A DNA stretch of 64,000 nucleotides. It comes from Lichenihabitans psoromatis. Its GTDB lineage: Bacteria > Pseudomonadota > Alphaproteobacteria > Rhizobiales > Beijerinckiaceae. The stretch is from the NCBI RefSeq assembly GCF_004323635.1, contig NZ_CP036515.1, forward strand, positions 4,217,501-4,281,500. The letters are read 5' to 3'. Positions 21,007 through 31,485 of the stretch are shown here, piece by piece (positions within the stretch are counted from its first letter, which is position 1; each line of letters begins with the position of its first letter). Made by a program: the position numbers and the translations under genes. The notes under the pieces are model-generated. The model did no database searches and had not been told where the DNA came from. It saw only the letters and a program-made list of their open reading frames with translations.

Positions 21007-21060
21007 ATTGCTGGCGCACCCGACACGATTCGAACGTGTGACCTCTGCCTTCGGAGGGCA
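21007..21060. repeat. Left attachment site: 54-bp copy of the tRNA-Arg 3' part
   Basis: This sequence is identical over 54 bp to 31432-31485, which covers the last 49 nt of the tRNA-Arg(CCG) gene plus 5 bp beyond its CCA end. Here the 5' half of the tRNA is missing and the flanking bases differ. It is therefore the partial tRNA copy left at the far end of an integrated element. The integrase gene starts about 180 bp to its right. Confidence 0.95.
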
Positions 21061-21175
21061 AAGGCTTCGAGCTGTTGACGGACATCCTAGATAGCCGACA
21101 CCACCTCAACCCATTGAGGGTGAACGAACAACGATGTATGGTGGTTTCCGTTGATGGCCCTGACTTGCCGCAAGC

Positions 21176-21195
21176 GTGCTACCCCGGTGCTACCC
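21176..21195. repeat. Double GTGCTACCC motif near the left island end (possible integrase arm site)
   Basis: Two GTGCTACCC units in tandem, forming a 20-bp string that recurs exactly at 31370-31389 just inside the right island end. Its position between the att site and the integrase gene, and the pairing of copies at the two ends, fits arm-type integrase or excisionase binding sites. Confidence 0.6.
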
Positions 21196-21241
21196 TGGGG
21201 TTCGTGCGCGGCGAGGCGGGTGAACGGAAAGATTGCTGGCG

Positions 21242-22507
21242 ATGGCGCAGGGTCGGATCACAAAGCGCTTGATTGACGCGCTTCAGGCGGACGGACGCGA
21301 CGCTGTCACTTGGGACGGCGAACTGACGGGATTCGGCGTGCGCATGCGGCCCTCGGGTGCGAAGTCGTTCATCGTCTCCTATCGTCTCGGCGGGCGGAAT
21401 GCGCCGATGCGAAAGGTGACGATAGGGGCGGTCGGCAAGATTGATGTCGAGAAGGCGCGGGCCGAGGCGAGACGCATCCTGGCGGGGGCAGAACTTGGGC
21501 AGGATCGTGCCGCAGACCTCGCACGGTCTCGCGCGGAACTCAGCATCGCAGGTTTATGCGACCTCTACCTTGCCGAGGGGTGCGAGACGAAAAAGGCCAG
21601 CACGCTTGCAACCGATCGCGGGCGCATCGAGCGACACATCAAGCCGCTGCTCGGCGGGAAACGGGTTGGCGAACTGACGCGTATTGATGTCGAGCGTTTC
21701 ATGCGTGATGTCGCGAACGGCAAGACCGCCGCCGATATTCGAACGAAGAAGCACGGTCGGGCAATCGTAGAGGGTGGCAAAGGCACGGCGACCCGGACCA
21801 TCGGTCTCCTTGGTGGCATTCTGACGTTTGCCGTCGTACGCGGCATGCGGGCCGACAATCCGGTGCGGGGGGTCAAGCGCTATACGGACAAAAAGGGGCA
21901 AGTCTTTCTATCGGCGGAGCAGCTCGGCAAGGTCGGCGCTGCGCTGGCCGAAGCAGAACGTCAGGGCGCCAATCCGTCGGCGGTGGCGATCATTCGGCTC
22001 CTCGCATTCACTGGGGCAAGGAAGGGTGAAATCGTTGGTCTAAGGAAAGACGAACTCGACCTCACACGCGGCTACCTCCGGCTTCACGATTCGAAAACGG
22101 GGCAGAAGGCGATCCCGATCGGCGCACCAGCAATTGAGGTTTTGACCGGATTGCCCATGCTTGAGGGTACGCCGTTCGTTTTCCCCGCATCGACAGGCGC
22201 GATGTCATTCCAGGGTGTCGAGAAGGTCTGGCGGAAGGTGCGGGTCGCGGCTGGCTTCCCCAATCTTCGGCTTCACGATCTAAGGCACAGCTACGCCTCG
22301 GCGGGCTTGGCACGCGGCGATAGCCTCTCTGTCATTGGCGCAATCCTTGGGCATGCCGACGTGAAGACGACCAGTCGCTACGCCCATCTCGCCGACGATC
22401 CAATCCGGGCGGCGGCGAACGGCATCGCCCGGTCGGTTCAGGCTGCCTTCGAAAACCAGCCTGCCGCGCGCGTGATCCCTCTTCGGAGCACAGGAAGTTC
22501 GTCTTAA
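21242..22507 (+). CDS. Tyrosine-type integrase (P4-like, arm-binding DUF4102 domain)
   Basis: A 421-residue integrase. The N-terminal arm-binding domain reads ITKRLIDAL, DGELTGFGVRMRPSGAKSF and YRLGG; a SAM-like core-binding domain follows (about 100-200); and the catalytic domain has Arg in TGARKGE near residue 258, HDLRHSY near 340, GHADVKTTSRYAHL near 363-376 with the nucleophile Tyr. All catalytic residues are present. ATG 21242 has GGAAAG upstream. It lies beside the left partial tRNA-Arg copy and probably catalysed insertion at that tRNA. Confidence 0.95.
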   Translation: MAQGRITKRLIDALQADGRDAVTWDGELTGFGVRMRPSGAKSFIVSYRLGGRNAPMRKVTIGAVGKIDVEKARAEARRILAGAELGQDRAADLARSRAELSIAGLCDLYLAEGCETKKASTLATDRGRIERHIKPLLGGKRVGELTRIDVERFMRDVANGKTAADIRTKKHGRAIVEGGKGTATRTIGLLGGILTFAVVRGMRADNPVRGVKRYTDKKGQVFLSAEQLGKVGAALAEAERQGANPSAVAIIRLLAFTGARKGEIVGLRKDELDLTRGYLRLHDSKTGQKAIPIGAPAIEVLTGLPMLEGTPFVFPASTGAMSFQGVEKVWRKVRVAAGFPNLRLHDLRHSYASAGLARGDSLSVIGAILGHADVKTTSRYAHLADDPIRAAANGIARSVQAAFENQPAARVIPLRSTGSSS

Positions 22508-22641
22508 CTGGCGCGGCGGCCGAACGCCAACCCGCCCGCCTTTGCTGGCTGTTGGCGCTTATTGCCCCACCCGCGCACCAGCATGGCGTCGTCTCTTGTC
22601 GAATTCTACACCACGCCTTGCACGGGCTGCCGCCCGCCTGC

Positions 22642-29762: not shown

Positions 29763-30251
29763 ATGGGAACGCGCTATCCGAATCCGCGCTTGGTGAAGGC
29801 GCACCGTTCCTACGACGTCACCGAACTGAGCCGGCTCTTCAAATGCCATAAGAACACGATCTTAGCTTGGCGGAAGACCGGCCTCGACTCGGTGGACGAT
29901 CGCAAGCCGTTCCTTTTCGAGGGCATTGTGGTCCGGACGTTCCTGGAGAGGCGCCGCGTCAGTGCCAGGCGGCCTTGCGGGCCGCACGGCCTGTTCTGCG
30001 TGAGATGCCGTGAGGCGAAGGCGCCAGCCCTCGGCATGGTCGACTACATACCGGTCACCGAGACCACGGGCGACCTACGAGGCCTTTGTCCTACGTGCGA
30101 TGGGATAATGCACCGTCGCGCGAACATGTCGCGCCTCGTCGCCAATCCCGGCTCCTTGGACATCACGTTCGCGCCAGCACCGCCAACCCTAAGAGGGAGT
30201 GCACAACCCATCCTGAACTGTGATTTGCGCCAAATTGGAGGAACCCGATGA
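29763..30251 (+). CDS. HTH and zinc-ribbon protein
   Basis: A 162-residue protein. The N-terminal part is a helix-turn-helix (YDVTELSRLFKCHKNTILAWRKTGL) and the middle holds two CxxC pairs (FCVRC near residue 80 and CPTC near 109), likely a zinc ribbon. The start ATG 29763 lies 9 bp after the AlpA-like gene; its stop overlaps the recombinase start as ATGA. It is probably a DNA-binding partner of that recombinase, based on context. Confidence 0.75.
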   Translation: MGTRYPNPRLVKAHRSYDVTELSRLFKCHKNTILAWRKTGLDSVDDRKPFLFEGIVVRTFLERRRVSARRPCGPHGLFCVRCREAKAPALGMVDYIPVTETTGDLRGLCPTCDGIMHRRANMSRLVANPGSLDITFAPAPPTLRGSAQPILNCDLRQIGGTR

Positions 30252-31344
30252 GCACTGCACCCGCAAGGGCTCGAAATACGCGGATCAAGCGCGCCTATTT
30301 CATCTATCTCGGCGAGGCCAAACGCAACGGCGAACACACGATCGACGTTGCCGCCGCTGCGATCGCGCGTTTCGAGACGTACACGAAGGGACGGGACTTC
30401 GGCACTTTCCGGCAAGAACACGCGATCGGCTTCAAGCGCCACCTCGCCGAGCAACGCAGCGTGCGTACCTCGGAGAAGCTGACGAAAGCGACGCTCTACA
30501 CGACTCTGTCCGTACTGAAGGCCTTCTTTAGGTGGCTTGCCGGTCAGCAGGGATACAGGTCCAAGCTCAGCTATTCCGACGCTGACTTTTTCCACCTCTC
30601 TGCGGCCGATACCGCTATCGCGAAGGCGACTCGCGAAGGCCGTTCGCCGACTCTGGAGCAAGTGCACCACGTGCTTGCCTGGATGCCACATGAAACCGAT
30701 ATCGAGAAGCGTGACCGTGCGATCGTAGCCTTTGCCATCCTCACCGGCGCGCGTGACAACGCCATCGCCTCACTGAGCATGAAACACGTCGACCTCGCGA
30801 GGGACCGCATCGAGCAGGACGCCTGCGAGGTCCGAACCAAGTTCTCGAAAACAATGACGACGGACTTTTTTCCAGTCGGTGAAGAGCCGCGGCGCATCGT
30901 GACCGAGTGGATCACGTTTCTTTGCCGCGAACGGCTTTGGGGTCCTGAGGACGCTCTTTTCCCGAAGACGAAGGTAGCTCGTGGCGAGGCGGGTGGTTTC
31001 CGCGCCATCGGCTTGGACCGCAAGGGCTGGAGCAGCGCCGCCCCAATACGCGCTATCTTCCGGCGCGCATTTGAAGCGGCGGGCTTGCCCTATCATAATC
31101 CGCATTCCCTTCGCCGAACTCTCGCGACGCTTGGCGAACGGGTTGCACGACTCCAGAAACGTTCAAGGCGTGGTCCCAAAACCTGGGGCACGACCACGTC
31201 CTAACGACGTTCACCAGCTACGGCGCGGTGGACAGACACCGGCAGGCCGACATAATGCGGGACTTAGCTCAGCCCAAGACCTCGTCCCATGGCTTGGATT
31301 TGATGACCGATCTGAAAACCGTTCTGGCCCGCCACTCGGGCTAG
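30248..31344 (+). pseudogene. Tyrosine recombinase with a frameshift before its active-site end
   Basis: The first frame (30248-31204) has a SAM-like N-terminal domain and the catalytic Arg in TGARDNA and HSLRRTLATLGERVA. It then runs out of family-like sequence. From about 31150 the other frame continues with TPETFKAWSQNLGHDHV, TSYGAVDRHRQADIMRDL and ends at TAG 31344, supplying the missing catalytic His and the nucleophile Tyr. A 1-base loss around 31148-31150 explains the break. The unrepaired protein would lack the nucleophile and be inactive. Confidence 0.88.
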
Positions 31345-31369
31345 GCAGTTCGATCGAAACAGGACCAGT

Positions 31370-31389
31370 GTGCTACCCCGGTGCTACCC
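31370..31389. repeat. Double GTGCTACCC motif near the right island end
   Basis: An exact 20-bp match to 21176-21195. It lies about 42 bp inside the right att repeat, fitting an arm-type integrase site. Orientation is the same on the given strand. Confidence 0.6.
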
Positions 31390-31431
31390 CGAAACTTCGA
31401 GACCACGTCCGGCAAGTTCTAAATTGTTGAA

Positions 31432-31485
31432 ATTGCTGGCGCACCCGACACGATTCGAACGTGTGACCTCTGCCTTCGGAGGGCA
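31432..31485. repeat. Right attachment site: 54-bp repeat within the intact tRNA-Arg
   Basis: Identical to 21007-21060. It overlaps the last 49 nt of tRNA-Arg from the anticodon stem through CCA, plus 5 bp. The two copies bound the element. Confidence 0.95.

Follow-up and report, generated by a model that had tools for sequence, protein, structure and literature searches.

A type I restriction–modification island integrated at tRNA-Arg(CCG) in an alphaproteobacterium, with a second recombinase module at its tRNA end

We analysed a 64-kb window, the stretch G000:C1:4217501-4281500 of the 4.84-Mb genome of an alphaproteobacterium (G000), in which an earlier note had read positions 21007-31485 as an island integrated at a tRNA gene. 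ARAGORN finds a single tRNA in the window, tRNA-Arg(CCG). The 3′ part of this gene, from the anticodon stem to CCA, together with 5 further bp, forms one copy of a 54-nt direct repeat. The second copy lies at a spacing of 10,425 bp and lacks the 5′ part of the tRNA, making it a displaced fragment. Between the two copies stand a tyrosine integrase, restriction genes, an orphan gene and a second recombinase cluster. The features at the two ends, with their putative attachment (att) copies, are as follows.

21007..21060, minus strand: displaced 3′ fragment of tRNA-Arg(CCG), distal att copy, identical at 54/54 positions to 31432-31485
21173..21195, no strand assigned: left arm-type repeat pair (GTGCTACC twice, 11-bp period), 96% identical to 31367-31389
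21233..22507, plus strand: P4-type tyrosine integrase of 424 amino acids (aa), open frame, matching Arm-DNA-bind_3 and Phage_integrase (Pfam)
31367..31389, no strand assigned: right arm-type repeat pair, found by repeat search, word count and end scoring
31432..31485, minus strand: proximal att copy, the 3′ part of the intact tRNA plus 5 bp (54-bp repeat)
31437..31513, minus strand: intact tRNA-Arg(CCG), the target (ARAGORN)

Among the direct repeats listed for 18-35 kb, the next longest is 32 nt at 72% identity. A chance origin of the 54-bp repeat is ruled out by its complete identity and its derivation from a tRNA. The exact repeats bounding the region, their placement within the intact tRNA and in a copy without the 5′ part, and the borders and tRNA-Arg(CCG) target deduced from them in the earlier note are all borne out by the repeat comparison and the sole tRNA. 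The intact integrase described beside the left repeat is present as well. Its frame is open, and the R, K, HxxR, H and Y residues, which we take to be catalytic, can all be found by eye. We conclude with high confidence that 21007-31485 is a single, site-specifically integrated, non-conjugative genomic island carrying a type I restriction–modification (R-M) system and an Mrr-like enzyme. It is a tRNA-integrated island of a known, textbook kind, and an unusually clean one, in which the sequence itself reveals borders, target, arm-type repeats and cargo.

Similar arrangements were found at the same tRNA in other genomes. Matches to tRNA-Arg(CCG) that run from the 3′ end only as far as position 45-59 are present in at least 17 of 60 genomes, and at least 12 of the 60 carry a related integrase within 200 bp of the partial copy, reading into the island (own genome included in both counts). 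By hit coordinates the 12 are G000, G001, G002, G010, G013, G018, G026, G028, G034, G047, G054 and G056. The other five partial copies (G005, G041, G044, G051 and G053) show no such integrase among the matches listed, and four of them may be parts of other tRNAs; of these five, only the G005 copy was read at sequence level. In G026, which belongs to another genus, the integrase again lies beside the fragment and a trio of genes, hth74-hth162-tyr2, beside the intact tRNA, with different cargo between them. A 5-kb contig of G295 carries the same trio, which forms the second recombinase cluster of the window, at a distance of about 100 bp from tRNA-Arg(CCG). Three further partial matches (G010:C12:50486, G056:C2:369975 and G016:C39:185933) correspond to the 5′ and not the 3′ part of the tRNA. 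Elsewhere in the host genome, L048:8256-10251 (G000:C1:3525000-3540000) holds a tRNA-Arg-like sequence with 89% identity to the core, an odd anticodon in ARAGORN and a weak integrase match nearby; perhaps this is another island end.

The two ends of the island also share a short repeat. Each 23-nt copy is a tandem pair of GTGCTACC, and this word occurs four times on the plus strand of the window (21176, 21187, 31370 and 31381), while its complement is absent from all 64 kb. The islands of G001, G013, G026 and G047 have one arm word each, the same at both ends; that of G047 equals the window's word and the other three differ from it. In local match scoring, left and right ends of the same island matched each other in five of five islands scored at both ends (20 in G000, 25 in G026, 21 in G047, 17 in G013 and 21 in G001), against 7-9 between islands. 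The exception is the pair G000/G047, with scores of 23 and 21 and a common arm word. The left end of the window thus scores 20 with its own right end, 23 with that of G047 and 7-8 with those of G026, G013 and G001. For G054 the left end alone was scored and gave 24 with G026 and 7-11 with others; the G002 ends, on two contigs, look alike by eye (unscored). By analogy, these end repeats look as integrase arm sites should, and we regard them as putative arm sites. The same repeat at both ends indicates that one integrase unit spans the stretch from the integrase to the second recombinase.

The restriction cargo and the orphan gene fill the middle of the island.

22642..23574, minus strand: Mrr-like modification-dependent endonuclease; Mrr_cat and Mrr_N (Pfam), mREase_IV (PADLOC); 4-bp overlap with hsdS
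23571..24677, minus strand: hsdS specificity subunit; Methylase_S (Pfam), Specificity_I over residues 51-367 (PADLOC); 4-bp overlap with hsdM
24674..26299, minus strand: hsdM methyltransferase; N6_Mtase and HsdM_N (Pfam)
26308..28593, minus strand: hsdR restriction subunit; ResIII, HSDR_N and EcoEI_R_C (Pfam)
28606..29457, plus strand: orphan gene of 283 aa in the slot upstream of the second recombinase module, with no family in Pfam, PADLOC or NCBIfam

All four restriction genes, which read leftwards and include all three type I subunits, are recognised by Pfam and PADLOC, in agreement with the operon and Mrr-like gene first described. The 4-bp overlaps of hsdM with hsdS and of hsdS with mrr suggest that hsdRMS-mrr is probably one operon, and its family matches predict restriction activity. 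The best NCBIfam match of hsdR is the EcoAI/FtnUII family, below the cut-off of that family; its true start probably lies inside the open reading frame (ORF) 26308-28593. A Methylococcus plasmid carries hsdR-hsdM at 74% DNA identity, covering 24% of the island. Type IV enzymes are often found near other R-M systems (PMC4176335). Compared with such pairs, the window's mrr overlaps hsdS, and only one of 19 related Mrr loci, taken with 1.5 kb on each side, has a neighbour matching the window's hsdS.

The 283-aa ORF is indeed an uncharacterised gene, as first reported. It has no match in 149 genomes of relatives except its own and none among 72,556 plasmid records, and none was confirmed in viral contigs; one other of 385 genomes of the class gives a weak partial match (E 1e-4). 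Its protein model is of low confidence (mean predicted local distance difference test score, pLDDT, of 45), with only part of a helical C-terminus above 80. In other islands, 20 ORFs of 258-362 aa were read from the slot before hth162. These fall into several unrelated groups, some perhaps not being genes, and none is related to the 283-aa gene.

The cluster at the right end consists of three genes, listed here.

29529..29753, plus strand: hth74, a 74-aa protein with relatives upstream of the module in five other genomes and others near related integrases
29763..30251, plus strand: hth162, MerR/BldC-like helix-turn-helix (HTH) and zinc ribbon (CxxC..CxxC), from alignments; 4-bp overlap with tyr2
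30248..31204, plus strand: tyr2, tyrosine recombinase; Phage_integrase (Pfam) and alignment; frame broken before the last His/Tyr segment

The second recombinase cluster of the earlier note is therefore present, at 29529-31204, but the recombinase ORF itself is frame-broken relative to its relatives. Whereas these measure 338-386 aa, the window's tyr2 loses its frame past HxxR and ahead of the stretch that holds the last His and the Tyr, leaving the R-K-HxxR-H-Y set incomplete; by eye, homologous C-terminal sequence continues in another frame to about 31344. The frameshift may be a sequencing error. Taken as it stands, the broken frame suggests that the module of the window is probably decaying. 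In an alignment of 21 rows, R, K, HxxR and H are conserved and the Tyr is kept in 19 of 20 relatives, the exception being L113 (G295), which has Asp in its place. We assume catalytic roles for all of these residues. Stops also occur in two of 29 matches in relatives and in three of 14 in a Pseudomonadota sample. Among the three tyr2 copies next to tRNA-Arg(CCG), two look inactive, namely the frameshifted copy of the window and L113. The recombinase matches only general tyrosine-recombinase models (Pfam, NCBIfam and PADLOC). Phase variation of hsdS by tyr2-driven inversion was considered and rejected, as no inverted repeat of hsdS segments is among those listed.

For hth162 the protein model has a mean pLDDT of 81, and the alignment of relatives shows an HTH and two CxxC pairs. 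No family in Pfam, NCBIfam or PADLOC matches it, and a fold search of the PDB with the model gave nothing at E ≤0.001; the top two rows, a terminase small subunit (6hn7_B, E 0.15) and BldC (6ama_B, E 0.17), are short HTH matches that cover 52-58 columns. The small protein hth74 is without a database match and presumably resembles winged-HTH excisionases.

Taken together, these features suggest how the island would have arisen. A circular form would carry an attP consisting of the tRNA-Arg(CCG) 3′ part between arm repeats, and the P4-type integrase would have recombined it with the tRNA gene of the host. The crossover would lie inside the 54-bp shared stretch, probably at the anticodon loop, so that insertion would have rebuilt the tRNA at one border, with the displaced 3′ fragment remaining at the opposite one. 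The type I operon and Mrr would then serve as a defence against incoming DNA. The right end would be a second conserved module, of HTH/zinc-ribbon and tyrosine-recombinase genes, that is common in R-M islands and here probably decaying.

Such a structure resembles the tRNA and tmRNA islands as defined by Islander (PMC4383910), which have a regenerated tRNA at one end, a displaced fragment at the other and a tyrosine integrase inside. The island is of the same kind; in this family the integrase is placed next to the fragment, and in the window and G026 the module is placed next to the tRNA. E. coli defence hotspot 37 at leuX (PMC12707154) is likewise anchored at a tRNA and combines an arm-type integrase with R-M systems that can be exchanged. 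It differs in using another tRNA, and no DNA match to hth162-tyr2 was found in E. coli with the one gammaproteobacterial probe used. A further parallel is ICEMlSym R7A (PMC11963761), which has an attP core flanked by arm-type repeats, which are bound by the N-terminal domain of IntS, and a small winged-HTH directionality factor, RdfS. As in that element, the core of our island lies between arm-type repeats, and a role of hth74 as directionality factor is only a guess. Unlike that element, the island has another arm word, and the nine island proteins scanned include no conjugation genes.

The congener G004 offers an island-free counterpart. There, a single contig of 37 kb combines gapR and one tRNA-Arg(CCG) with homologues of two flank genes: that of 32032-33939, from the right flank, and, 5.2 kb past the tRNA, that of 2156-3985, from the left. 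It has no second tRNA-Arg copy and no relative of the island integrase. The empty site suggested as a check in the earlier note is thus present as far as the linkage of gapR and tRNA-Arg without an island is concerned, whereas no base-level junction with the sequence left of 21007 was found. That contig lacks anything corresponding to 3986-21006, the window's left flank, and the bases after the tRNA differ.

Several observations weigh against reading the region as a single acquired island. As the left flank is unmatched at this locus in the five congeners searched, the empty site is supported only at the level of gene order. At 59-65% per kb, the island does not differ from its flanks in GC, and a foreign GC content was therefore rejected. 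In Pfam and NCBIfam scans of nine island proteins, no relaxase or conjugation family scored above cut-off, and Pfam detected no structural, packaging or phage replication genes in the same nine. A PHROGs search with six of the proteins returned integrase and nuclease matches and nothing else below E 0.03.

The module itself proved to be widespread. A scan of GTDB genomes with tyr2 gave at least 517 relatives among 593 stretches, of which the best 80 were kept. Together with 20 from relatives, and after removal of duplicates, these make 97 distinct loci; the best 80 are top matches to the window's recombinase and thus a non-random sample, and ORF picking was crude. These 80 are spread over Pseudomonadota, Acidobacteriota, Thermodesulfobacteriota, Nitrospinota, Nitrospirota and Myxococcota. 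A gene of the hth162 type lies directly upstream of tyr2 in the window and in 86 of the 97 loci, and in 10 of 11 further loci from nine genomes; in two ORFs, both of G845, hth162 and tyr2 are fused (L299:8924-10555 and L300:8700-10331). Where 5 kb was available on both sides, a tRNA or tmRNA stands within 5 kb with its 3′ end towards the module in 38 of 58 loci and away from it in one. Between module and tRNA, 47 ORFs (a subset of 60 of at least 250 aa) include 29 that match Phage_integrase and 26 that match Arm-DNA-bind_3. The recombinase is present in 25 of 299 genomes of relatives and in 11 of 398 sampled Pseudomonadota genomes (own included). The tyr2 of G183 matches three of 72,556 plasmid records (E 1e-40) and none of 50,697 phage records (E 1e-10). 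On a quick tree, L131, L203 and L112 join the window in a group that has support, and all four have hth74; L126 has hth74 too and sits elsewhere, on a long branch. A literature search of open-licence papers found no description of the hth162-tyr2 module.

R-M genes are frequent beside the module, on its cargo side. There, 76 large ORFs from 44 loci match N6_N4_Mtase 11 times, N6_Mtase 10, ResIII 10, HsdM_N 8 and MmeI 4 (from 25 of 56 families listed), and PADLOC methylase models occur up to 11-13 times. Beyond the tRNA, 95 ORFs from 48 loci gave no methylase model among the 25 of 44 families listed, none of which was counted more than twice; Dnd, Ssp, PD-T4-6 and MADS models turned up singly. 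With an R-M panel that is home-made, crude and partly drawn from the same loci, 28 of 49 tRNA-linked loci had an R-M gene on the island side and none had one on the outer side. The panel detected an R-M gene anywhere in 47 of the 97 loci and matched eight of the 11 further loci. In 23 of the 97, the strand of tyr2 carries an R-M gene no more than 800 bp downstream of it (stop-to-stop frames). We compared these with 30 control loci from the window's order that hold the window's integrase family and have no module in the 10-15 kb fetched. The controls are crude, and taxon-matched only in a tblastn search with the window's R-M proteins within that order, which gave matches in six of 20 module loci (L111-L130) and in none of the 30 controls. 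For 59 control ORFs, N6_N4_Mtase, N6_Mtase, ResIII, HsdM_N and MmeI are not among the 25 of 61 families listed, so that no more than one control ORF can belong to any of them. Mapping the R-M label onto a quick tree takes 26 changes, 13 or more of which fall on well-supported branches, and the link is therefore not one inherited locus, though almost all of 500 shuffles were less clustered. Site-specific exchange of cargo at the module edges was examined and rejected: junctions in four locus pairs look like ordinary in-gene deletions, with no recombination site.

From the neighbourhood, the gene fusion and the catalytic residues kept in most relatives, we tentatively propose that hth162-tyr2 might be a dedicated recombination or establishment module of R-M islands, co-transcribed with R-M genes, which would capture or exchange R-M operons or couple their expression to island movement. 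Such a role would extend over Pseudomonadota, Acidobacteriota, desulfobacteria, Nitrospinota and more, with the window as a decaying member. We hold this as a possibility that falls short of probable. A doubtful competitor is that hth162-tyr2 is ordinary tRNA-island cargo and that its R-M link mirrors how defence genes as a whole are enriched in islands. Integrase-bearing defence loci anchored at tRNAs are indeed known (PMC12707154). R-M genes went unrecognised in about half of the module loci (47 of 97 recognised) and are absent from three of the 11 further ones, and the controls also hold defence-type genes (one ORF with a REase_MTES_1575 domain, as well as SLATT and ArdC domains). The controls moreover come from a single order and the best 80 module loci from many phyla. 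Against this stand the family counts (N6_N4_Mtase, N6_Mtase, ResIII and MmeI at 11, 10, 10 and 4 in 76 module ORFs, at most one each in 59 control ORFs), the difference seen within the order and the same-strand R-M genes closely following tyr2.

Two other explanations concern the origin of the second recombinase. It is unlikely, in our view, that the island lineage once used tyr2 as its integrase and that tyr2, displaced by the P4-type integrase, is now decaying. The frameshift of the window, the Asp of L113 and the stops in other relatives would fit such a history, as would the excisionase-like appearance of hth162 and hth74. Yet nearly all relatives keep the Tyr, though Arm-DNA-bind_3 integrases are common between module and tRNA, and the fusion of hth162 with tyr2 also speaks against it. 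We consider it very improbable that the region consists of two adjacent elements, an island of integrase and R-M genes next to an independent HTH-zinc-ribbon-recombinase remnant at the intact tRNA. The two recombinases do belong to different families, and in many genomes the module sits between its own Arm-DNA-bind_3 integrase and the cargo. No third att copy lies between the repeats, however (the best match is 11 nt), the arm repeat of the left integrase also stands to the right of the module, and G026 has the same bracket around other cargo.

Ten flank ORFs compared with Pfam resemble ordinary chromosomal genes, nine having a family and one having none. Matches to part of 18871-21006 occur in three of the six genomes of the genus (the host counted in both figures), and in the two other than the host they lie away from the tRNA-Arg and gapR hits. 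The 17 kb of 3986-21006 are non-syntenic with G004, where tRNA-Gly(GCC) comes after tRNA-Arg. Two 19-nt repeats with 95% identity and a GCTTACAGTGTAAACA core lie 27 bp apart at 18826-18871, immediately before a TetR gene (18871-19422), and are perhaps its operator. The stretch 20370-20822 (about 453 bp) is a diverged genome repeat, with 79% identity to G000:C1:115436-115895. A second gapR, 80% identical in protein, is present in L049 (G000:C1:3455000-3466000); at a distance of about 5 kb it has a neighbour related to the DUF4142 gene 19521-20036.

With arm repeats that vary between islands and are equal at both ends of each, the integrase family at tRNA-Arg(CCG) offers a natural data set on the co-evolution of integrases and their arm sites. 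The second recombinase module is the part worth following. It may explain how unrelated R-M types travel with tRNA islands, and if it exchanges or times R-M operons, it would represent a new mobility mechanism for bacterial immunity.

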